Shown here: positions 24,637 through 63,801 of the stretch, one piece after another | Layout: every line of letters begins with the position of its first letter | Position numbering within the stretch: the first letter of the stretch is position 1 | DNA from: Ignavibacteriaceae bacterium | Lineage (GTDB): Bacteria; Bacteroidota; Ignavibacteria; Ignavibacteriales; Ignavibacteriaceae | Reading direction: 5' to 3' | DNA length: 64,000 bases | Assembly (NCBI GenBank): GCA_013042995.1 | Contig: JABDPB010000105.1 | Location: 1-64,000 of the forward strand | Program-made: the position numbers and the translations under genes | Notes under the pieces: generated by a model | The model's input: the letters and a program-made list of their open reading frames with translations, nothing else | Database searches by the model: none | What the model was told of the DNA's origin: nothing

Positions 24637-25884
24637 ATGCAAATCTGCGTTTTTGAAGACGAACGATATATTAATTTTGAACCGCTTATTTATTCACGAC
24701 CTGTTTACGATTTAATATGCGGAATGACCACTCTGAAGGAGAAAATTATTCGTGCATTTCCAAAAGAGAAAGTCGTACTGAAATGCCGGAGTTACTTGGA
24801 TTATTTTGTAAAAGAGGAGAATTCTAATTGTAAAGTAAATCGATTTAGTAAAGATGATTATTTGTTTATCAATGGACGGATTCTTGAACCTGCAAATTTG
24901 AAAAACATCTTAAAGATAGACTCTTCCCATGATAAAGCTTTTGTTTCAAAAGGAGTTATTGTTGCTGCAAAAGTTTCGTGGGAAAAAGTTAAAAAATTAA
25001 AGTTAGATAACGTAGAAATTATCGATACAAATTTATTCCGTAACCTACCTGCAGAAGAAGTTGAAGTTGAGTGTGTGAATTATTTGTGGGATCTTGTTTA
25101 TCTGAACAGCAAAGAAATTCAGAATGATTATAAGATTAACACCAAGGGTAAAACCACTTCAAAAAAGAAATACTCTGGCGTGAACTTTGTAAACAGAAAA
25201 AATATTTTCATCGGGAAAAATGTTGATATAAAACCAGGAGTTGTTTTAGATGCTTCCACCGGACCAATTTACATAGATAAAAATGCAACAATTTTTCCAA
25301 ATGCAGTAATACAAGGACCTTTCTACGCAGGCGAATCATCGCAAATAAAAAGCTGTGCAACTATTTATCCGAATGTCAGTATCGGCAAGGTTTGCAAAAT
25401 CGGTGGAGAAGTTGAAGATACGATAATTCATTCATATTCCAATAAACAACATTCTGGATTTCTTGGTCATTCTTATTTAGGGAGTTGGATAAACATAGGT
25501 GCAGATACAAATAACAGCGACCTTCAAAATAATTACGGAACAATTAAAATTCAGGTGAATGGTAGACACATTGATTCTGGAAAACAATTTGTCGGTTTAT
25601 TGATGGCGGATCATTCCAAAACTGCAATCAACACAATGTTCAATACTGGAACTGTCGTTGGATTTTCGTGCAATATTTACGGAGCCGGTTTTCCGCCAAA
25701 ATATATTCCTTCATTTTCCTGGGGTGGAAGTGATTCAGTAAGAGAGTATAAATTTTTAAAAGCAACTGAAACCGCAAAAGCGGTCTTTAAAAGAAGACAA
25801 AAAGAATTTACAGAAAAGGATGAAAAATTATTTAAGGAAATTTTGGAAATAACAAAAGAAGAGAGATCAAAGAGAGGATTTTGA
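24637..25884 (+). CDS. GlmU-like sugar nucleotidyltransferase with left-handed beta-helix
   Basis: N-terminal NFEPLIYSRPVYDLICGMTTLKEKI; hexapeptide-repeat C-terminus with GTVVGFSCNIYGAGFPPKYIPSFSWGG. Confidence 0.85.
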   Translation: MQICVFEDERYINFEPLIYSRPVYDLICGMTTLKEKIIRAFPKEKVVLKCRSYLDYFVKEENSNCKVNRFSKDDYLFINGRILEPANLKNILKIDSSHDKAFVSKGVIVAAKVSWEKVKKLKLDNVEIIDTNLFRNLPAEEVEVECVNYLWDLVYLNSKEIQNDYKINTKGKTTSKKKYSGVNFVNRKNIFIGKNVDIKPGVVLDASTGPIYIDKNATIFPNAVIQGPFYAGESSQIKSCATIYPNVSIGKVCKIGGEVEDTIIHSYSNKQHSGFLGHSYLGSWINIGADTNNSDLQNNYGTIKIQVNGRHIDSGKQFVGLLMADHSKTAINTMFNTGTVVGFSCNIYGAGFPPKYIPSFSWGGSDSVREYKFLKATETAKAVFKRRQKEFTEKDEKLFKEILEITKEERSKRGF

Positions 25885-39477: not shown

Positions 39478-40521
39478 ATGCAAAACTCTGCAGGAAAAAT
39501 GAAAGCATCTTTTCTTTCTTTTCTTTCTTTTATTTTAATTTTGTTTTTTCTATTTGCTTTGACAGGCTGCAATAAAAAGTATGAGGAACAAACAGTCCCC
39601 CAAAATGTGCCCGATACAACTGCAGTAGAAACTACAAAGCATTTTTTATTTGTTGGAAAATGGTACGGGAAAGCAGGAGTTTATAAATATGATTTGAATA
39701 CAAAAAAGCACGAAACCGTTTGGTGGCATCCAAGGGAAAATGTAAAGCTGCTTATTTCTAAAACTGAAGTTAATCCTGCATTTTTTTTTACTCTGAGAAA
39801 AACAGGATTTCAAGGTGGTTTTCCATATTTTGAAAAAGTTAAAATCTACAGAATTAGCAAAGATTTTAGCAAAACCGAATTTATTTATTCAATAAAAGAC
39901 GGAATGCAAATAACAGCACGCTGGAACAACGATGAAAATTTTGAAGTTGTATTTACAGAAATTGATAAAACTGATCCAATTTACATTAATAGACATATAA
40001 AAACCTTCGATGGCTACGGAAAATTAATTAATGATGAAATTGAAACCTTCAATCTTGTTGCTGATGGTTTTCCCGAACTGCTGCCTGAAAGAAATCCAAC
40101 TGTCTCTGCATCCGGAAGGTACGGAATTTCTGTTGTTGGAGATTCCGTTTATTTAAAAACCGCTGATGGTGACAGCTTAAAATTTATAATAGATGTAAAT
40201 CATTACTTAAAAAAAATTGAATGGAGTATTGACGAGCAGTTTGTTTTTATCTCAACCCTCGATCTTGAAAACGAATCGTTAAAAACTCAAAAGCCAGAAA
40301 CCTCTGAATTGTTTGTATATTCTATAGTAAAAGACTCGGTTGTTGCAAGCTGGAGTGGGGCAGGGATAAAAAACTTTTTTACACTCGACAGCCTGCTGGT
40401 TTTTGATAATGGTTTTGGCAGAAATTCATCTATTTTTATCTATAATTATTTAAACGAAGAATTATTCAAGAAATTTAACATAAAGGGAGAATGCGGACTA
40501 TTTTATATTCCAGAATTATAG
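39478..40521 (+). CDS. Putative lipoprotein, beta-propeller-like, unknown function
   Basis: LFALTGCNKK lipobox; true start possibly ATG at 39499. Confidence 0.65.
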   Translation: MQNSAGKMKASFLSFLSFILILFFLFALTGCNKKYEEQTVPQNVPDTTAVETTKHFLFVGKWYGKAGVYKYDLNTKKHETVWWHPRENVKLLISKTEVNPAFFFTLRKTGFQGGFPYFEKVKIYRISKDFSKTEFIYSIKDGMQITARWNNDENFEVVFTEIDKTDPIYINRHIKTFDGYGKLINDEIETFNLVADGFPELLPERNPTVSASGRYGISVVGDSVYLKTADGDSLKFIIDVNHYLKKIEWSIDEQFVFISTLDLENESLKTQKPETSELFVYSIVKDSVVASWSGAGIKNFFTLDSLLVFDNGFGRNSSIFIYNYLNEELFKKFNIKGECGLFYIPEL

Positions 40522-40528
40522 TTAAAGT

Positions 40529-42388
40529 ATGAAGACTTACCTAAGAATTCTTTCATATGTTAGGCCATACTGGAAGCATCTTTTATTTGCAATTTTGCTT
40601 TCAATTCTTTACGCGGTTTTTAACGGTGTTTCAATTTATCTTGTTATTCCTCTACTTGATACTTTGTTCCAGGAATCATCAGTTCAAACAACTACTGAAA
40701 GTACAACCAGTACCGATTCAATATCTTCCATTATACCAGATTTTCTATTAGACCTTAAAGACAGTGTTGTTTCGTGGTTTGTAGATTTCGTCTACATCGG
40801 TGACAAGATAGAAATTTTGATGAAGATATGTATAGTAATTCTTATTGTTTTTATGTTAAAAAATGTTTTTGGGTACCTGCAGGCATATTTTATGGCTTAC
40901 ATTGAATACGCCTCAATGAATGAATTAAGAAACGCTGCTTACAAACACCTTCACAAGCTACCCTTAAGTTTTTTTAAGAAAGAAAAGGTTGGGGATATTA
41001 TTTCAAGAATTACGAACGACATTGTCAGAATACAGGAAAGTATCTCGGCAACATTTAGCAATCTTATTAAAGAACCTTTTACAATCATTGTTTTTCTTGT
41101 AATTGCATTAAGCATCAGCTGGGAACTTACATTATTGGCTGTAATAATTCTTCCGTTATCAATGCTGGTAATAGGATGGATCGGACTTAAAGTAAGAGCA
41201 CAGAGTACAATTGTTCAGGAAAAACTGGCAGACATAACCAGTGTTTTACAAGAAACAATTTCAGGTGTGAAAGTAGTCAAAGCATTTGGAATGGAACAGT
41301 ACGAGAACAATAAGTTTTTTGCGGAGACAAAGAGTTTTTTAAGGACAGTTTTAAAAGTTGTTAGAATCAGAAATTCTTCTTCGCCTGTTACAGAAATAAT
41401 TAGTGTTTTTGTGGGAGCGGTTATTATTTATTATGGCGGTGTTTTAGTTCTTGCAGAATCAACACTTACTGCAAGCCTTTTTATGGGATTTTTACTTGCA
41501 ATATTCCAAATGATGCGCCCCATAAAAGAACTTAGCACCGTGAACAACAGAATTCAGGAAGCAAGTGCAGCGGCGGATAGGGTTTTTGAAATTTTAGATA
41601 TTGTGCCAGATATAAAGAATAAAACCTATGCCGAAACTCTTAGCGATTTTAAAAATACAATTAAGTTTGAAAATGTTTCTTTTAAGTATGAAGATTCAGA
41701 TGAATTGGTACTAGACAATATTAACTTTCACGTAAAGAAGGGTGATATATTAGCTCTTGTTGGGCCAAGCGGTGGCGGCAAATCTACTTTAGTAGATTTG
41801 ATTCCGAGGTTTTATGATCCTGCAAGCGGTCGGTTATTAATTGATGGTGGAGATATCCGTGAGTTCACACTTGAATCGTTGCGGAGCAAAATGGGAATTG
41901 TAACGCAGGAAACTTTTTTATTCAATGCTTCAATTAAGCAGAACATTGCATATGGTTTAGATGACTATCCTTTAGAAAAAATAATTGAAGCCGCAAAGAC
42001 CGCTAACGCACATAATTTTATTATGGAGTCTACCAAAGGATACGATACGGTGATAGGCGAACGCGGAGTCAAGCTTTCGGGTGGTCAGCGCCAAAGAATT
42101 ACAATTGCACGTGCTCTTCTTAAAAATCCCGAAATAATGATTTTTGACGAAGCAACTTCTGCACTCGATAGTGAATCTGAGATGCTTGTACAGGAAGCTA
42201 TTGAAAGGTTAATGAAAAACCGAACAACTTTTGTAATTGCGCACAGGCTTAGCACTATAAGGAACGCAACAAAAATAATGGTTATTGATTACGGAAAAAT
42301 TATTCAGTCCGGCACACACGATGAACTGATTAAAGTTGATAAGGGGTTATACAAAATGCTTTACGATATGCAGTTCAGGGATAGTTAG
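40529..42388 (+). CDS. ABC transporter ATP-binding/permease protein (MsbA-like)
   Basis: ABC TM domain plus GPSGGGKSTLVDLIPRFYDP, LSGGQRQRITIARALLKNPEIMIFDEATSALD. Confidence 0.95.
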   Translation: MKTYLRILSYVRPYWKHLLFAILLSILYAVFNGVSIYLVIPLLDTLFQESSVQTTTESTTSTDSISSIIPDFLLDLKDSVVSWFVDFVYIGDKIEILMKICIVILIVFMLKNVFGYLQAYFMAYIEYASMNELRNAAYKHLHKLPLSFFKKEKVGDIISRITNDIVRIQESISATFSNLIKEPFTIIVFLVIALSISWELTLLAVIILPLSMLVIGWIGLKVRAQSTIVQEKLADITSVLQETISGVKVVKAFGMEQYENNKFFAETKSFLRTVLKVVRIRNSSSPVTEIISVFVGAVIIYYGGVLVLAESTLTASLFMGFLLAIFQMMRPIKELSTVNNRIQEASAAADRVFEILDIVPDIKNKTYAETLSDFKNTIKFENVSFKYEDSDELVLDNINFHVKKGDILALVGPSGGGKSTLVDLIPRFYDPASGRLLIDGGDIREFTLESLRSKMGIVTQETFLFNASIKQNIAYGLDDYPLEKIIEAAKTANAHNFIMESTKGYDTVIGERGVKLSGGQRQRITIARALLKNPEIMIFDEATSALDSESEMLVQEAIERLMKNRTTFVIAHRLSTIRNATKIMVIDYGKIIQSGTHDELIKVDKGLYKMLYDMQFRDS

Positions 42389-42389
42389 A

Positions 42390-44423
42390 ATGAGTGAATC
42401 CAGCAGCCGTCCGGTAAAAATTTTAGATATTCTTACCTACATTTTTTTCACAATATTTTTACTCTCTCTTGGCAATTCTATTTTTGCTAATCAGGTTGGT
42501 TTTTTTGGAGCACTTTTTTTTATACTTATTAGGATTGCAATTACAAGAAAAAATCAATTTTATAAAACTGGACTCGAGCTTCCGTTTCTGCTCTATATTC
42601 TTGCCGAAACACTTTCATTGATTTTTTCAGAATACCCATCGGAAGCATTTAGAAACCTTACTAAAAGATTCGCAGTTATATTGGTTTTTTATACAACCAT
42701 TGCTGCTGTAACAAATTTAAAGTGGGGGAAAAGATACTTTTATATCTATTTAGGAGGAATGCTCGCTACTATTTCAGTTTATCTTTTCTTTTCGGCAGAG
42801 CATTACCTGAACAATCTCTATGGCACAGTCCAATCTGGTCCATCAGTTTTTCAATTTCCAATTACAACTAGTGAGATTATAAGTTTTACGGTAATATTTT
42901 TATTTGCTTTTTTAATTAACGAGAAAACATCCTTACGCGTTAAGCTTTTTACACTTGCTGGATTTTTAATTTCATCCGCTGCACTAATTGCAACCTTTAA
43001 AAGAACTGGCTGGATTGGTGCGATGTTCGGAATTGTCTTAATCCTTATTCTCACAAAAAAATGGAAGGCTCTCACTGCTGCAGTTATCGTTGCCGCGTTG
43101 CTTTTTGTTATTGAATCAAATAAAAGTGAAGTTTTGATTTTCAATACCGGCGAAGACAAACTAGAAAAAATTCATTCATTTGAAACAGAAGGCAGGGCTT
43201 ACAATTTTACCACAATAGACAGCATGATTGTTGTGGTTGATTTTGACAACGGACTGCTGTTTTTTAAAGACGATAGATTTGTTAAGAATGTTAAACTAAC
43301 CGCTCCAATTGGATCCATTACGCATTTAAAAGATGATTATCACATTGCTTCGCTTTACGATACAAGGTTTATTGTATTAAAAAGAAACGGACTGAAGTTT
43401 ACCGAAGTAAATGAACTTCTTTCGCCCGGCTATACTAAAGTTTTCAAAATTGAAAATGAAATGCTTTACGTACTTGATGCTGACAGCGGACTTACTGTTT
43501 TTACCAATCCAATTAAAAGTGACAAACACCGGAGATTTCCCGAACTGAAGTTTGCAGACAATATTTTTATAGATTCATCAAAATTCTATATTGATTACGA
43601 TCGTGGTTTGCAAATTCGTGAATTAAATAATTTTATCCCATCAGAAAAAATCAATCGTGAGCTAGATGGTTCATTTAAAATATTAAAAACAGAAAATGGA
43701 AGAATCTTAATCAGTAAATCAAATAAAGTCGAACTGCTGGATCTCAATTTTAATATGATTGACTCTGTAACAATTGGTTCGTATGTAAAACAGATTGTGA
43801 GAGACAAAGATAATATATACCTGCTGACTGCAGAAAATGATATTTTAAAGTTAACCAATCCATTTAATGACTCATTAAAAGTTCTAAACAAGTACAACCT
43901 TGCTTTTACACCTAGGACATTATTTGCAAACGATAATAAAATCTACACAAGTATAGTTATTCGAAGCAGGCTGATGAGCATTTTCGATCCTTATGTCCAG
44001 ACTAATTTTTCGCGGCTTGCCCTCTGGCGAGCAGGTTGGGAGATGTTTAAAAACAACCCGATTTTTGGCTTAGGTGATATTGATCTTGCTAAATACTACT
44101 TAAAATATAAGCGACCAATTGACAAAGAGATTCACGGTCACCTGCATAACAATTACATTCACTTTTTAGCTACGCTTGGTTTATTTGGATTTCTAGCACT
44201 TACTTTTCTCTTTGTAAAAATGTTTATGGTTATGGGTTCACACTTTAAAGCAACTAGAGAGAAGCCGTTTATAAATTCTTATGCTCTTGGAGCAATTGCC
44301 GGTTTGGCGAGCATGCTCACTGCAGGCTTAACAGAACTTAATTTTTGGGACCAGGAAATTACCACGCTTGTTTATTTTACAGTTGGACTTAGTATTGCTC
44401 TATTTAAACATTATAAAGCTTAA
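42390..44423 (+). CDS. O-antigen ligase/polymerase (Wzy_C-like) with large repeat-rich insertion
   Basis: Polytopic TM N-terminus; RLALWRAGWEMFKNNPIFGLGDI...HGHLHNNYIHFLATLGLFGFLAL motif; about 285 aa of soluble repeats in between. Confidence 0.85.
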   Translation: MSESSSRPVKILDILTYIFFTIFLLSLGNSIFANQVGFFGALFFILIRIAITRKNQFYKTGLELPFLLYILAETLSLIFSEYPSEAFRNLTKRFAVILVFYTTIAAVTNLKWGKRYFYIYLGGMLATISVYLFFSAEHYLNNLYGTVQSGPSVFQFPITTSEIISFTVIFLFAFLINEKTSLRVKLFTLAGFLISSAALIATFKRTGWIGAMFGIVLILILTKKWKALTAAVIVAALLFVIESNKSEVLIFNTGEDKLEKIHSFETEGRAYNFTTIDSMIVVVDFDNGLLFFKDDRFVKNVKLTAPIGSITHLKDDYHIASLYDTRFIVLKRNGLKFTEVNELLSPGYTKVFKIENEMLYVLDADSGLTVFTNPIKSDKHRRFPELKFADNIFIDSSKFYIDYDRGLQIRELNNFIPSEKINRELDGSFKILKTENGRILISKSNKVELLDLNFNMIDSVTIGSYVKQIVRDKDNIYLLTAENDILKLTNPFNDSLKVLNKYNLAFTPRTLFANDNKIYTSIVIRSRLMSIFDPYVQTNFSRLALWRAGWEMFKNNPIFGLGDIDLAKYYLKYKRPIDKEIHGHLHNNYIHFLATLGLFGFLALTFLFVKMFMVMGSHFKATREKPFINSYALGAIAGLASMLTAGLTELNFWDQEITTLVYFTVGLSIALFKHYKA

Positions 44424-44514
44424 TTGGTAACGACAAAAGATGAGATAAAATAATTCTGCTTGCTTATTTTAAATGCAGTCGAAGAAAATCTTTTTAAATT
44501 AATTGTCTTTTAAG

Positions 44515-46020
44515 ATGAAAAACAACAACAAAAATGAAATTATAAAAAAAGCTAAAAAATTTTCCACACGGTTCAATTCAAGCAGTAAAGAACTGGCGAT
44601 AATTCTTGCAGCAGGACATGGAAAGCGGATAAAATCGCAGCGCTCAAAAATGCTGCATAACATTTGGGGTGTGCCTACAATTGAGCGTGTTTACAATGCC
44701 TGCGCTAATGCGGTTAAAGGAATTAACACAATTGTTGTTGTTGGAATTAAAGCGCTCGATGTGCTGGAAGTTTTTGGAAAACAAACAAATACCTCGTACG
44801 CATATCAGCAGGTGCAAAACGGAACGGGACACGCGGTGCAAGTTGCTTTACAAAACGTAAAACGCTTCCCGCCAAATGGGATTGTTTACATTATGCCTGG
44901 AGATATGGGTTTAATTGATGAGGAATCAATTTCAAGTTTCAGGAAAAGCTTTAAAGATTCACATGCACAGATGATTGTGCTTACAGGAATATTTACAGGT
45001 GATCCAAATGAAAACAACTACGGAAGAATTTTGCGTGTAAAAGATTACGATACAAATGAGGTTAGCTCAAGAGTGGATGAAGGAAAAGTAATTAAAATAA
45101 TGGAGCAAAAAGATATTCTTGCATTGCCCGATAACAAGCCCTATCTCGCAGAATACAAAGGAAGATATTACTCTTTTACAAAAGAGGAGCTTATAAACAA
45201 CAACGAATACAACTCCGGGGTGTTTGCTTTTCGCTACAGCAAGCTTAGAGAACTGATTGGCGAACTTAAGAGCGATAATGTGCAAAAGGAAATTTACTTA
45301 ACCGATCTCATTTCTTTGTTTAATGAAAAAGATTACAGTGTCGCTGCAGTTAGCCCTGAAAAAAATTACGTTGTAATGGGCTTTAACAACAAATCTGTTT
45401 TGAAAGAGATGGAAGCAATTGCCCGCAAAAATGTTTACGAAAAGCTGAAAGACATAATTGAAATTGAAGACCCGGACGATTTCTTTATAGATGAAAAAGT
45501 TGTTGAAGACATTTTAAAGATGGATATAAAATATCCGGCACTGGATATTACAATCAGTAAAGGTGTTTACATTGGCAGAGATGTAAAACTGAACTTAAAC
45601 CTCTCGCTTGGCAAAAATGTTTTTGTGGATGGACACGTATTTATTGGAAAGAACGTTTCCATAAGCCACAATGTGCATCTTTCCTGCTATCCTGAGCAAA
45701 CACTTAAAATTGGTAACAATGTCCAGATTTTGTGGGGCGATATAATTAAAGGCAATATTGTAATAGGCGATGGTTCTTGCATTGAATCCAGTGTTAATAT
45801 GACCGGCAGCGATGAGTTTCCTTTGAAGATTGGAGAAAACGTTTTAATTAAAGGCACCTCTTATATCTTTGGTTCTAAAATAGCGAGCAATGTAACTGTT
45901 GAGCATAGCATACTTGTAAAAAAGAAAGTACGTGCTGTTAAAAATGAAAAAGGAGAAGTGCAGCCTGTTAGATATTATGTACCTGAGAGTGAGGGGGAGA
46001 AAGCTTTAAGCGATATTTAA
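44515..46020 (+). CDS. GlmU-like bifunctional sugar nucleotidyltransferase
   Basis: LAIILAAGHGKRIKSQRSKMLHNIWGVPTIERV pyrophosphorylase motif, GDMGLI, beta-helix C-terminus. Confidence 0.87.
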   Translation: MKNNNKNEIIKKAKKFSTRFNSSSKELAIILAAGHGKRIKSQRSKMLHNIWGVPTIERVYNACANAVKGINTIVVVGIKALDVLEVFGKQTNTSYAYQQVQNGTGHAVQVALQNVKRFPPNGIVYIMPGDMGLIDEESISSFRKSFKDSHAQMIVLTGIFTGDPNENNYGRILRVKDYDTNEVSSRVDEGKVIKIMEQKDILALPDNKPYLAEYKGRYYSFTKEELINNNEYNSGVFAFRYSKLRELIGELKSDNVQKEIYLTDLISLFNEKDYSVAAVSPEKNYVVMGFNNKSVLKEMEAIARKNVYEKLKDIIEIEDPDDFFIDEKVVEDILKMDIKYPALDITISKGVYIGRDVKLNLNLSLGKNVFVDGHVFIGKNVSISHNVHLSCYPEQTLKIGNNVQILWGDIIKGNIVIGDGSCIESSVNMTGSDEFPLKIGENVLIKGTSYIFGSKIASNVTVEHSILVKKKVRAVKNEKGEVQPVRYYVPESEGEKALSDI

Positions 46021-46029
46021 TAGGAGACT

Positions 46030-47898
46030 ATGGAAAAGGGACAAATAATTGAATTCATAAAAAAGATTGAGCTGTTTAAAGAATTAGCAGACGATGAACT
46101 GCAGTTAGTTGCGTCTGGCTTGCAGGAAAAAGTTTACGAAAAAGGGGAGCTGCTCTTTAGAGAAAACAATCCGCGCAAAGAGCTTTACTTAATTTACGAT
46201 GGTGAAGTAGAGCTTTTCAAAAAAAATCCTTATGGGGAAGAAAACCGTCTTTCATTCTTCAGCAAATACGACTTTTTGGCAGAAGGCTCCTTAGTCGATG
46301 ATTCTCCTCATTCAACTTCTGCACGTGCACTTTTAAAAACTAAAGTGTTTTTAATTAACCGCGATAAATTCACTGAAATTATAAAAACTAAAGGAGAAAT
46401 TTCTCTTAAAATATATTCACAGATTTCACGTGTAATTTCACGCCGCATGCGTCACGCAAATATCAGGGGCTCAGATGTTGGTGCACAGTACGATTCCGGC
46501 AGAACTCGTATAGAACACGATCTGCTTGGAGACAGAGATGTTCCTTTTGAACGATACTACGGTGTTCAAACTTTGCGGGCAACAGAAAATTTTAATATCA
46601 GTGGTGTAACATTAAACTTTTATCCGGATCTTGTTAATGCACTTGCAATAGTTAAAATGGCAGCTGCAAAAGCTAATCACGATTTGGGCTTGCTATCAAA
46701 ACCAATCACCGATGCAATAGTGCAGTCTTGCAACGAAATAATAAACGGAAAGCTTCACACTCATTTTGTAGTGGATATGATACAGGGCGGAGCGGGCACA
46801 TCAACAAATATGAATGCAAACGAAGTAATAGCAAACCGTGCTTTAGCAATTCTTGGTTACGAAAAAGGCGAGTACAAATACTGCCATCCGAATAATCATG
46901 TTAATTTATCTCAATCAACAAACGATGCGTATCCAACCTCAATTAAACTTGCTTTAATCAACAGTAATAAAAAACTGATTGATGTTTTAAAGATTCTAAT
47001 AAAATCTCTGCGCCAAAAAGCAGATGAATTTTCGAATATAATTAAAATGGGAAGAACTCAGCTGCAGGATGCAGTTCCGATGACACTCGGACAATCATTC
47101 GAAGCTTATGCAGTAACATTTGAAGAAGAAGTTGATCGGCTGGAAGAAAACGTAAGTTTATTTTTAGAAGTGAATATGGGTGCAACTGCAATAGGGACAG
47201 GAATAAATGCACCGGATGGTTATAGTGAAAAATGCATTCATCATCTAAAGGCAATAACCGGATTCGATATAAAACTTGCTTTAAATCTTGTTGAAGCAAC
47301 GCAGGATACGGGTGCTTTTGTAATGTATTCTTCAGCAGTAAAAAGACTTGCAGTAAAGCTTTCAAAAATGTGCAACGATCTACGTTTGCTCTCTTCAGGA
47401 CCACGTGCAGGTTTAAATGAAATTAATCTACCGCCTATGCAACCGGGTTCATCAATTATGCCCGGAAAAGTAAATCCCGTCATACCGGAAGTTGTAAATC
47501 AAATTGCCTTTAAAGTTATTGGTAATGATTTTACTGTAACACTTGCAGCAGAAGCTGGACAGTTGGAGTTGAATGTTTTTGAGCCTGTAATCGTTCAAAG
47601 TTTATTTGAATCAATTGAAATGCTGAAGAATGGAATGGAAACTCTCGTCCATAAATGTATCGAGGGAATCACTGCCAACAAAGAGTATTGCAGGTTGTTA
47701 GTTGAAAACAGTATTGGGTTGGTTACTGCTTTAAATCCAGTTTTAGGTTATGAAACTTCTACCGCACTTGCAAAAGAAGCATTGGAAAATAATCGGGGTG
47801 TGTACGATCTTGTTTTAGAAAAGAAGCTGCTATCTAAAGAAGAGCTTGATAAAATTCTTTCTCCCGAAAATATGATTAAGCCAAATAAGCCTTCATAA
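46030..47898 (+). CDS. aspA: Cyclic-nucleotide-binding domain fused to aspartate ammonia-lyase
   Basis: Residues ~1-145 cNMP_binding (LYLIYDGEVELFKKN...YDFLAEGSLVDDSPHSTSARA); residues ~155-622 aspartase (TRIEHDLLGDRDVPFERYYGVQTLRA, GSSIMPGKVNPVIPE). Confidence 0.93.
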   Translation: MEKGQIIEFIKKIELFKELADDELQLVASGLQEKVYEKGELLFRENNPRKELYLIYDGEVELFKKNPYGEENRLSFFSKYDFLAEGSLVDDSPHSTSARALLKTKVFLINRDKFTEIIKTKGEISLKIYSQISRVISRRMRHANIRGSDVGAQYDSGRTRIEHDLLGDRDVPFERYYGVQTLRATENFNISGVTLNFYPDLVNALAIVKMAAAKANHDLGLLSKPITDAIVQSCNEIINGKLHTHFVVDMIQGGAGTSTNMNANEVIANRALAILGYEKGEYKYCHPNNHVNLSQSTNDAYPTSIKLALINSNKKLIDVLKILIKSLRQKADEFSNIIKMGRTQLQDAVPMTLGQSFEAYAVTFEEEVDRLEENVSLFLEVNMGATAIGTGINAPDGYSEKCIHHLKAITGFDIKLALNLVEATQDTGAFVMYSSAVKRLAVKLSKMCNDLRLLSSGPRAGLNEINLPPMQPGSSIMPGKVNPVIPEVVNQIAFKVIGNDFTVTLAAEAGQLELNVFEPVIVQSLFESIEMLKNGMETLVHKCIEGITANKEYCRLLVENSIGLVTALNPVLGYETSTALAKEALENNRGVYDLVLEKKLLSKEELDKILSPENMIKPNKPS

Positions 47899-60021: not shown

Positions 60022-60198
60022 GATAATACTTGCTAAAGGCAACGAAGCTTGGCATTGGGCAAATATTGTGAAATAGACAGAATTAAGAATATTACTTGTT
60101 ATTAAAATTCTAATAGGCTTTATTTACCAACTGCTTTTTTATTAACTTCTTTGCAATGCGGAAAAAACTATTTCGCCAATAAAAAACAAGGGGCAACA

Positions 60199-63100
60199 AT
60201 GAGAGCACTCTACGCGTTCTTCTCGCTTATACTGTTCACACTCTTATTTTTCTTCAATTTTACTTTTGCTTCCGTCCCGGAAGGAATAACGGTAACTAAA
60301 AATATTTCAGGCTATCAACTAAACTTTAACTTACCATCTTATGAAATGAGTCCGATTTATGCCGAAGGAGATGAATACATAAACTTAACAATTCCTGGAT
60401 ACGGTGTAACGCCGGAAGTTGGACTGCCGACTTTGCCGCTTATATCATTTAATTTATTTATTGCCTATGATGAAGAGCAGCCTGAATTTGAGATTACAAA
60501 TTTGAATTACGAAGAGGAAACTCTTCCGCATAAAATTTTTCCGTTTCAAATACCATGGGAAAAAAATAAATCGCTGTCTGATAGACCCTTTACTATTAAC
60601 AGAGAATATTATAATTCAAAAGGAAAATCAAATCTACCTGCCATTTCTATTTCGGAACCGTTTATAATTGCCGGCGTTAAAGGTGTAGTTGTTACTGTTT
60701 ATCCCTTCAGCTACAACCCAGTGGAGAACAAGTTGAAAGTTTTGGAATCGGGTACTTTCAGAATATTGCTTGACAAGCCTGTTGTACCTGCTGTAAACAA
60801 ATCAAAAAACCTTCTGAATTTTTGTGAGAAGATATTTATCAATTTCGATGGAACTCCCAATAGCACAGTAGTAAGATATTTAATTATAACCGCTCCTGAG
60901 TTTGAAACAGGAATGCAGCAATATGCTAATCATAAAACCGTCAAAGGTTTTGAAGTTGCAATGTTTAATACTAATGCTACCGGAACAACTAATACTTCTA
61001 TTAAGAATTTCATACAGCAGCGTTACAACGATCTGCAAACAAGACCTGAATTTATTTTACTTGTTGGAGATGTAATCCATATCCCTGCCTGGACAGGTTC
61101 AGGAAGTGGAACACCAACTACAGACCTAAATTATGTTCAGCTTGAAGGTGGGGATTATTTTGCGGATGCTTTCATTGGCCGATTTTCTGTTACAGGTACC
61201 GATGAATTACAGAATGCAATTGATAAATCAATTTTTATGGAGAATTATATCGGGACGTTAAACAAGAAAAATGTTTTTATGGCATCAACTGATAACTGGC
61301 AAATTTCAGAAGGAACTCACAATCACGTGATTGATAATTATTTTGGACCAGCCAACTATACTAATCTTAAATTATATACTTATACTTACAATGCCACAAC
61401 TCAACAGCTAATTGACGCTTTAAATGATAATCAGGTGTTGGCTGTTTATTCAGGACACGGTGGCACCTATTCGTGGGCAGATGGACCCCAGTTAAGTCAA
61501 TCGCAGGTAGAAGCATTAACAAACACATGGTATCCCTTTGTTTATTCATTTGCTTGTGTAACAGGTTCATATCACGTTAGCGAGTGCTTTGGTGAAACGT
61601 GGCTCCGGACTGAAAACGGTGCATCAACTTTTTATGGCTCTTCCGTAAATTCTTACTGGGATGAAGATGATGTGCTTGAAAAAAATATCTTTAAAGCTAT
61701 GTTTGTTGATGATTTAACACTTATGACACCAATGTTTGTAAAGGGTATGATTTATCTTGTTAATCACTACGGCGGTATTACCGGAACAACGTTAAGATAC
61801 ATGGAAATGTATAACTTAATGGGTGATCCCTCTATGCCTGTTATTCAGCAGATTCCTCCCGACACCACACCACCTGATCCGATTACCGATCTTACTGCTG
61901 TAAATCCAACTTCAAATTCAATTACACTTAACTGGAGCGCACCATTCGATTCGACTTTTGGCGGAATAGAAACATACGATATTCGTTACTCTTTGACCAT
62001 GATTAATAATGACAATGATTTTAACAGCGCCCCGCAGAAATTATTAACAGGACAATCTGATACTGCTGGAACACCTAAAGCTTTTGCTATTGATGAATTG
62101 GGATTCAACACAACTTATTATTTTGCAGTTAAAGCAAAAGATATTTGGGGCAACACTTCAGAGATGTCCAATGTTCCAAATGAAATAACTTACTCAGCGC
62201 CCGAACTAGCACTAAGTATTGATTCCTTGCACTGTGTTGTACTTCCGAACAGCACACACACCGACAGTATTCTGATTTCGAATGTTTCTGTGCAAAACTC
62301 AACGCTTGATTATTCAATTGAGCTAACGAACAATACTTTTCCTGATGAGGTGTTTTTAAAACTGGTGGGATTAATAAGGGAAAGTCAGTCCTCAGGCAAA
62401 ACTAAAGAGAATCCACTACATTTTGGAGGATTTAGTTTTAAAGGCAGCGGCGGTCCTGATCTCTTTGGCTATGAATGGATTGATAGCAATGAGCCAAATG
62501 GTCCGGAATATCTTTGGAATGACATTTCTTCAACTGGAAATGAAATTACTAATTGGCTTCCAACGGGCAGCTTTGATCCGAAAGATGAAGGAACAGCAGG
62601 ACCGATTCCAATTGGATTTGACTTTAAATTTTACGGTGAGACGAAATCACAAGTGTATGTAAATACAAACGGTGTAATATCGTTTATCAATATAACAGAA
62701 AATATTTTTTCAAATGATGCTATTCCAACAGCTGGAATTCCGGATGCTATGATTGCTCCGTTCTGGGATGATCTTGATGGAAGAACACAAGGAAATGTAT
62801 ACTACAAACAAGAGAGCGATAAGTTTATTATTCAATTTACAAACTGGCAGAAATATTCTGGAACGGGATCCCTTACTTTTCAGATTGTACTAAAATCAAA
62901 CAACAGGATTTATTTGTATTATGAAAACATGGCTGCAAGTTTAAATTCCTGCACAGTTGGAATTGAAAACTACAATGGGACTGACGGACTGCAAATTGCG
63001 TACAATGCAGGATATATTGAAAATCAGCTTGCTGTTCTGATTGCTTCAGATCCTGAGTGGCTTACACTCAGCGATTATGCGGGTAGATTGTATAATGGAA

Positions 63101-63801
63101 ACACCTCAGCCATTGTTTTAAATATTGTCACCGATGAGCTTCAGATGGGTGATTATTCAATGGATATGGAAGTTGTAACAAATGATCCGAACAATACATT
63201 TGTAGTTATTCCGATTACGATGACAATTACAAATGAAATTCCGGTTGAGCTTGCTTCTTTAAACGCTGAAAATTATGAAGATGAAATTGTTATAAGTTGG
63301 CAGACAGCAACGGAAACTAACAACTTAGGATTCGCAGTAGAAAGAATATACCTCTCAAATTCTGATTGGAACGAGATTGGCTTCGTTCCAGGATTTGGTA
63401 CTACAACAGAGCCCAAATCTTATTCTTTTACGGATGATATAATTTCATCAGGTACTTATAAATACAGATTAAAACAAATTGATTTAGACGGTACAGTTTC
63501 ATATAGTTCTGAACTAGAAGTAGAAGTTAACGGTCCGAATAAATTTGCACTTTATCAAAATTATCCTAACCCGTTTAATCCAAGCACAACGATAAAATTT
63601 GCCATACCGGAAAAGACAAGTCTTGAACTTTCTGTTTATAATTCCCTAGGTGAAAAAGTAGTTGAAGTCTTTAAAGGTGAACTTGATGAAGGTTACCATC
63701 AGATTGAATTTTCAGCTACAAATTTTTCATCAGGCATATACTTGTATAGGTTGGAAAGCAAAAATTTTGTAAGTGTTAAGAAAATGATTCTTATTAAATA
63801 G
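60199..63801 (+). CDS. Secreted C25 (gingipain-like) cysteine peptidase with T9SS type A sorting domain
   Basis: Signal peptide MRALYAFFSLILFTLLFFFNFTFA; YSGHGGTYSWADG and FACVTGSYHVSECFGE catalytic-type motifs; FN3 domain; CTD YQNYPNPFNPSTTIKFAIPE...KKMILIK. Confidence 0.92.
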   Translation: MRALYAFFSLILFTLLFFFNFTFASVPEGITVTKNISGYQLNFNLPSYEMSPIYAEGDEYINLTIPGYGVTPEVGLPTLPLISFNLFIAYDEEQPEFEITNLNYEEETLPHKIFPFQIPWEKNKSLSDRPFTINREYYNSKGKSNLPAISISEPFIIAGVKGVVVTVYPFSYNPVENKLKVLESGTFRILLDKPVVPAVNKSKNLLNFCEKIFINFDGTPNSTVVRYLIITAPEFETGMQQYANHKTVKGFEVAMFNTNATGTTNTSIKNFIQQRYNDLQTRPEFILLVGDVIHIPAWTGSGSGTPTTDLNYVQLEGGDYFADAFIGRFSVTGTDELQNAIDKSIFMENYIGTLNKKNVFMASTDNWQISEGTHNHVIDNYFGPANYTNLKLYTYTYNATTQQLIDALNDNQVLAVYSGHGGTYSWADGPQLSQSQVEALTNTWYPFVYSFACVTGSYHVSECFGETWLRTENGASTFYGSSVNSYWDEDDVLEKNIFKAMFVDDLTLMTPMFVKGMIYLVNHYGGITGTTLRYMEMYNLMGDPSMPVIQQIPPDTTPPDPITDLTAVNPTSNSITLNWSAPFDSTFGGIETYDIRYSLTMINNDNDFNSAPQKLLTGQSDTAGTPKAFAIDELGFNTTYYFAVKAKDIWGNTSEMSNVPNEITYSAPELALSIDSLHCVVLPNSTHTDSILISNVSVQNSTLDYSIELTNNTFPDEVFLKLVGLIRESQSSGKTKENPLHFGGFSFKGSGGPDLFGYEWIDSNEPNGPEYLWNDISSTGNEITNWLPTGSFDPKDEGTAGPIPIGFDFKFYGETKSQVYVNTNGVISFINITENIFSNDAIPTAGIPDAMIAPFWDDLDGRTQGNVYYKQESDKFIIQFTNWQKYSGTGSLTFQIVLKSNNRIYLYYENMAASLNSCTVGIENYNGTDGLQIAYNAGYIENQLAVLIASDPEWLTLSDYAGRLYNGNTSAIVLNIVTDELQMGDYSMDMEVVTNDPNNTFVVIPITMTITNEIPVELASLNAENYEDEIVISWQTATETNNLGFAVERIYLSNSDWNEIGFVPGFGTTTEPKSYSFTDDIISSGTYKYRLKQIDLDGTVSYSSELEVEVNGPNKFALYQNYPNPFNPSTTIKFAIPEKTSLELSVYNSLGEKVVEVFKGELDEGYHQIEFSATNFSSGIYLYRLESKNFVSVKKMILIK

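Follow-up and report, generated by a model that had tools for sequence, protein, structure and literature searches.

We found that one gene in the window (the whole stretch of Ignavibacteriaceae DNA that was analysed, 64,000 nucleotides) encodes a 677-residue ligase of the Wzy_C family whose domain is interrupted by an insert of about 285 residues, and that this insert is predicted to form a seven-bladed beta-propeller. Fold, insertion site, single origin, conserved catalytic residues and gene linkage were all obtained by computation. On balance we lean towards the view that the protein is a WaaL-type ligase in which a once-inserted propeller would act as a cap, turned to the active site, for the handling of a glycan or a partner.

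Domain layout and fold of the insert

The open reading frame is uninterrupted and starts one base past the msbA stop codon (Table 1). The sole Pfam family found on the protein was Wzy_C (PF04932; 72.4 bits against a curated cut-off of 31.7), and its profile was split in two, with positions 2–58 aligned at nt 42960–43118 and positions 75–148 at nt 43986–44201, on either side of the insert. An AlphaFold2 model built from an alignment of 60 orthologues taken from the fetched loci (mean pLDDT 91.6, pTM 0.84) contained nine long helices in the N-terminal part and three in the C-terminal part, a count taken from the predicted structure. The WaaL O-antigen ligase has twelve transmembrane helices. Both the predicted helices and the split profile bear out the order given in a preliminary description of this DNA, which had read a polytopic membrane part, then a soluble insert and then the Wzy_C motif. 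A Lys/Arg-rich cytoplasmic loop before the ninth helix (TM9) and the position of the Wzy_C periplasmic motif would place the propeller in the periplasm. In NCBIfam no specific enzyme name was found above cut-off for the protein; the only match, to the IctB-like bicarbonate transporter (TIGR00947), was rejected at 52.1 bits against an equivalog cut-off of 366.4.

Table 1. Coordinates of the ligase gene, its parts and its neighbours in the window.
Feature	Position	Strand	Basis
Lipoprotein with its own, different beta-propeller, msbA-linked	39478..40521	+	AlphaFold2 (AF2) mean pLDDT 88.2; Foldseek
MsbA-like ABC exporter, directly upstream	40529..42388	+	TIGR02203 6.9e-164, 546.5 bits against cut-off 602
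677-aa Wzy_C-family ligase with inserted beta-propeller, complete gene	42390..44423	+	One ORF; PF04932 4.6e-20, two stretches
N-terminal membrane part, residues 1–243	42390..43118	+	Nine membrane helices in AF2; PF04932 profile 2–58
Inserted seven-bladed beta-propeller (predicted), residues 245–524	43122..43961	+	AF2, Foldseek, 41-aa periodicity, propeller families in orthologous inserts
Blade 7 strands C and D, the N-terminal strands 245–265, closing the ring	43122..43184	+	AF2
Blade 1 (270–301), conserved B–C turn V-D284-F-D-N-G288-L	43197..43292	+	AF2 strands, conservation
Blade 2 (307–343), conserved B–C turn D324-T-R326-F	43308..43418	+	AF2, conservation
Blade 3 (349–383), conserved B–C turn D363-A-D365-S366-G367-L-T369	43434..43538	+	AF2, conservation
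Blade 4 (391–420), poorly conserved	43560..43649	+	AF2, conservation
Blade 5 (430–461), poorly conserved	43677..43772	+	AF2, conservation
Blade 6 (466–503), least conserved	43785..43898	+	AF2, conservation
Blade 7 inner strands A and B (510–524)	43917..43961	+	AF2
Ancestral linker 525–541 (R-x-R-L-x-S-I-x-D-P-Y-x-x-x-N), right edge of insertion	43962..44012	+	Junction alignment; also in insert-less orthologues
Catalytic periplasmic loop 542–588: Arg542 (44013–44015), G-H-x-H-N with His586 (44145–44147)	44013..44153	+	Invariant columns
C-terminal membrane helices, residues 589–677	44154..44420	+	AF2 helices 589–621, 626–649, 655–676
GlmU-like nucleotidyltransferase with left-handed beta-helix, downstream	44503..46020	+	Best NCBIfam GlmU 5.6e-52, below cut-off

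Between the membrane helix at residues 225–241 and the helix at 537–555 the model has 28 strands. These are arranged in a ring of seven four-stranded blades, six of them complete and the seventh closed from two plus two strands; in blade 1 the strands are residues 270–276, 279–284, 288–293 and 296–301. A Foldseek search with the model returned 1053 PDB matches at E ≤ 0.001, with propellers at E of about 1e-8 and probability 1.00, and each of the best 50 of the 1053 seems to be a chain with a propeller, among them beta-TrCP, BamB and RACK1. When the sequence profile of the insert was compared with solved structures, propellers were again the main matches. The profile also resembled itself at a spacing of about 41 residues, with z values of 4.6 and 3.9 at offsets 41 and 79; the maximum z that column shuffles gave over offsets of at least 25 was 3.3 (95% level) or 3.9 (99.9% level). 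Roughly seven units of about 40 residues had been read in the insert beforehand, and the seven peptides listed at the time map to blades 1 to 7, in order. The earlier span of 43115–43990 does contain the propeller, but it also includes linkers, and the propeller proper is the shorter interval in Table 1. A high-confidence structure prediction and matches to solved propellers thus stand behind the propeller reading, and the model supports a seven-bladed beta-propeller at residues 245–524.

Distribution and origin of the insert

The same protein is encoded, free of stop codons, in about 54 of 97 related genomes at 26–49% identity. A single-sequence query of genome contigs gave no matches, whereas an alignment query returned 74 loci, mostly from Ignavibacteriales or Ignavibacteria MAGs and including the named genome Stygiobacter electus and one Ignavibacterium sp. 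chromosome. The earlier concern that an assembly error or a frameshift had joined two genes has next to no probability and can be regarded as refuted, since a single stop-free ORF is conserved, at 24–49% identity, in about 50 independent genomes from several families.

In a class-wide search the full-length insert-bearing form was found only in families f1, f2, f3 and f13. Other families, among them f8, f14, f15, f18–f20, f22 and f24, have forms of 386–450 residues in which the profile breaks at about 238–245 and resumes at about 526–541, with few residues between. Of the 17 insert-less loci compared, 12 also have the gene downstream of msbA, either immediately or at a distance of up to about 1 kb. 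Because other families of the class have an insert-less orthologue of about 390 residues behind msbA, the insertion site can be fixed within a few residues. Alignment of the junction places it after TM9 ends and before an ancestral linker, R-x-x-S-I-x-D-P-x-x-x-x-N-x-x-R, that leads into the catalytic helix; S526, R527, D533 and N539 are conserved in this region.

We found that all 49 insert-bearing proteins fell on one branch (100/99) of a maximum-likelihood tree of the enzyme parts, with insert-less class members as sisters of this branch and no insert-less protein within it. Since all outgroups are without the insert, a single gain in the ancestor of an Ignavibacteriales clade is the simplest reading of the tree. 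No insert-bearing protein was found outside the group in a phylum sample of 396 genomes. The long Wzy_C ORFs (560–833 aa) of other families that were checked for similar inserts had C-terminal extensions instead, and one 615-aa Wzy_C ORF was extended N-terminally by a doubtful choice of start. The preliminary description had allowed that most family members might carry the insert as a described domain; it is confined to one clade, and the sister clade and the other Wzy_C proteins examined are without it. As a separate observation, the orthologous ligase in a complete Ignavibacteriota genome (L083:5944-8066, CP053447.1) is split into two ORFs, which points to a disrupted or frameshifted copy.

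Mean identity of the orthologues to the 677-aa protein is 26% in the insert and 43% and 50% in the enzyme parts, and the insert keeps a nearly constant length of 285–303 residues across families. Because insert-less versions occupy the same slot, the propeller seems, by this comparison, to be an add-on to a working ligase and dispensable for the basic reaction. Fast divergence and functional insert-less forms would also be expected of a passenger domain that is merely tolerated and has no specific role. We consider such a passenger quite improbable given the lack of any insert-less protein inside the insert-bearing clade, the near-constant length of the insert and its focused set of conserved loop residues.

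With regard to the source of the insert, the LVIVD repeat was matched by 13 of 49 orthologous inserts (best 1.8e-14), and others match NHL, WD40-like or PQQ-type propellers. The insert of the 677-aa protein itself gave no significant match to LVIVD (PF08309) or to another propeller family. Since the LVIVD profile misses this insert but finds 13 of its orthologous counterparts, we describe it as related to LVIVD and do not file it there; to judge from the profiles, it has diverged below LVIVD detection. The insert profile also matched a stand-alone LVIVD lipoprotein of a related genome (L151:6653-7669; PF08309 1.2e-29) at 2.8e-10 and further non-ligase ORFs of the class at up to 3e-15. Taken with the LVIVD matches among orthologous inserts, this makes a secreted LVIVD-like propeller the likely donor. 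Duplication of the neighbouring lipoprotein was considered as a source and rejected, at an hhalign probability of 4% and with the lipoprotein having lactonase/DPP4/TolB-like matches of its own.

Ligase identity and gene neighbourhood

R542, H584, H586 and N587 were invariant in the 60 orthologues. In a profile search the best solved-structure match was WaaL of C. metallidurans (7tpg, E 7.1e-7), in an alignment spanning the C-terminal third only, where R542 and H586 align with the Arg and the HN histidine of that enzyme. In WaaL the N-terminal half has a conserved arginine on an amphipathic periplasmic helix; R205 (K-R-T-G-W, nt 43002–43004), in the N-terminal half of the 677-aa protein and outside this alignment, is at least 90% conserved. 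Roles for the catalytic His and Arg have been described in WaaL and its relatives (PMC12800693, PMC10449877), the histidine being His338 in WaaL (PMC10449877) and H324 in PglS (PMC12800693). From the alignment we infer that H586 corresponds to the published His338.

The PF04932 family spans ligases, polymerases and O-oligosaccharyltransferases, so the domain by itself does not decide the type of enzyme. Four observations favour the LPS ligase WaaL: the link to msbA, the other ligase type found at msbA where this gene is lacking, the setting of the remaining Wzy_C genes and the presence of lipid A genes. MsbA flips lipid A-core, and of 66 checkable loci 48 have msbA immediately upstream; in about a quarter of relatives the gene is away from msbA. 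The source genome has LpxB and KdtA, thus lipid A and Kdo are likely made. Its other three Wzy_C genes adjoin glycosyltransferases, two of them also Wzx/MurJ-type flippases and one with Wzz, and by these surroundings they sit where polymerases do. As these three lie beside glycosyltransferases, the gene described here is probably the genome's best candidate for WaaL, the lipid A-core ligase. A Wzy-type polymerase or a protein O-oligosaccharyltransferase, with a propeller that recognises the growing glycan or the acceptor protein, would suit the mixed membership of PF04932, the missing NCBIfam name and those relatives whose gene adjoins polysaccharide genes. We judge it unlikely, because most genomes, and the sister clade too, keep the linkage to msbA, the genome has separate Wzy_C genes in polysaccharide clusters and the closest solved structure is WaaL.

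The examined members of the same families without the propeller ligase mostly have another, insert-less Wzy_C clade beside msbA (L166, L167, L168, L169, L172, L173, L175 and L180-L182), and at L170, L171, L174 and L176-L178 neither ligase type was found within the available DNA. It is possible from this pattern that the two msbA-linked ligase types replace each other. By inspection of the sequence, the propeller ligase of some relatives (L066, L071, L074 and L105) lies away from msbA, beside initiating-sugar-transferase-like, GT9-like and MurJ/Wzx-like flippase genes.

The neighbours named in the preliminary description, an MsbA-like exporter, a GlmU-like gene and a lipoprotein that might be propeller-like, were each recovered by profile or structure searches (Table 1). 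We found that the lipoprotein matches propellers in Foldseek, including lactonase, DPP4 and TolB, and that five of its relatives also match a SPOR domain. Profile comparison of the lipoprotein with the insert was negative; it is a second propeller, unrelated to the insert. The downstream GlmU-like gene scores well below every GlmU cut-off and may therefore have another sugar-nucleotide role. Elsewhere in the window, a second GlmU-like nucleotidyltransferase/beta-helix gene was read by eye at 24637-25884, and the translation of 46030-47898 reads as an aspartase/fumarase-like enzyme, apparently with a fused N-terminal cyclic-nucleotide-binding-like domain. A 1216-aa protein at 60151-63801 resembles a C25-type peptidase in its body, and its end (PNPFNPSTTIKF...) reads as a type-A sorting domain of the T9SS; a T9SS is probably present in the source genome.

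Conserved face, proposed role and comparison with known systems

Conserved residues of blades 1–3 lie in the B–C turns (D284, G288, D324, R326, D363, D365, S366 and G367) and in the D–A loops between blades (T266, G268, P306 and G347), and blades 4–6 have almost none. In a canonical propeller the B–C and D–A loops are on one face. The chain enters at strand C and exits at strand B of blade 7, through linkers of 3–12 residues. Since entry and exit are both at the B–C loop of blade 7, canonical geometry would put both linkers on the face of the conserved loops, and this face should then turn toward the ligase active site. By this geometry the catalytic loop and the membrane domain would lie opposite the conserved face, which may be kept only because it packs against the membrane part.

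From these observations we infer that the protein catalyses the ligase reaction, that its conserved surface faces the active site and that it binds a ligand. A WaaL-type ligase would transfer Und-PP-linked polysaccharide onto lipid A-core, an acceptor that the neighbouring MsbA would supply by flipping it across the inner membrane. The complete LVIVD-like propeller, gained in a single insertion after TM9 and just before the catalytic periplasmic helix, would form a fixed cap in the periplasm. Through contact with the acceptor, the donor glycan or a delivery partner this cap would select or position the substrate, and the faster-evolving blades 4–6 would adapt to each lineage. We favour this substrate-handling cap with moderate confidence because only some blades are conserved and the rest evolve fast. 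A more speculative extension, which we put forward tentatively, is a receptor-bearing ligase, in which the built-in propeller would read the acceptor, the donor chain or a secretion partner in the periplasm and, as a sensor or selector, gate O-antigen ligation accordingly; one use could be a special LPS form that anchors surface proteins. If true, this would be a mode of control undescribed for the WaaL family in the open-access literature searched.

Protein binding is common among propellers, and the insert could be a docking platform for a protein partner, such as the linked propeller lipoprotein or an Lpt or T9SS component, and not a sugar-binding module. A second propeller lipoprotein does lie beside msbA in many genomes, and in Porphyromonas the beta-propeller protein PorZ passes A-LPS to the T9SS sortase (PMC8545088). 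We nevertheless find docking doubtful: the lipoprotein is retained where the msbA-linked ligase has no propeller, and so is not tied to the insert, and PorZ is absent among the solved structures that the insert profile matched.

The cap that we favour can be set beside several known systems. PorZ of Porphyromonas gingivalis is likewise a beta-propeller that binds LPS glycan (PMC8545088), but it is located at the cell surface and has a CTD besides two propellers, whereas the 677-aa protein has one propeller inside a membrane enzyme and no T9SS domain; homology of the insert to PorZ or the T9SS had no sequence support, with no PorZ match when the insert profile was compared with solved structures. 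The O-oligosaccharyltransferases PglL and PglS also have a periplasmic domain in addition to their RfaL/Wzy_C core (residues 438–548 in PglS; PMC12800693), but theirs is C-terminal and not a propeller. Similarly, TPR-tailed Wzy_C proteins of the same class (e.g. L157, L158 and L159) join the enzyme to a soluble domain, TPR-like by reading, which follows the last membrane helix and does not precede the catalytic loop. LVIVD propellers (PF08309) and choice-of-anchor B secreted proteins (TIGR04312) share with the insert a repeat of about 42 residues, but their known members are secreted or surface proteins and not parts of membrane glycosyltransferases.

A literature search for a propeller within a ligase found no description; it covered open-access papers, limited evidence, and the architecture is thus provisionally undescribed. 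Little is understood of the way in which O-antigen ligases select their glycans and acceptors, and no extra recognition domain is known in the solved WaaL. The protein clearly exemplifies the insertion of a whole propeller into a polytopic enzyme, in a loop beside the active site, and opens the question of whether such enzymes can recognise substrates or partners via an added receptor. WaaL of Cupriavidus metallidurans (PDB 7tpg/7tpj) shares the membrane family, the R...W...P..G.G periplasmic helix and the HN histidine motif, but it is a ligase without a propeller, whereas here about 285 residues are inserted just before the R...W helix. The insert-less msbA-linked orthologues of the sister clade in other families of the class (e.g. 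L134:6748-7908, 387 aa; L138:5650-6810) have the same slot and the same N- and C-terminal parts but no propeller, with mostly 0–9 residues between the two profile segments. Matched ligases with and without the propeller thus occur in one msbA-linked slot, and the insertion site is located almost to the residue, which makes the role of the module directly testable by its removal.
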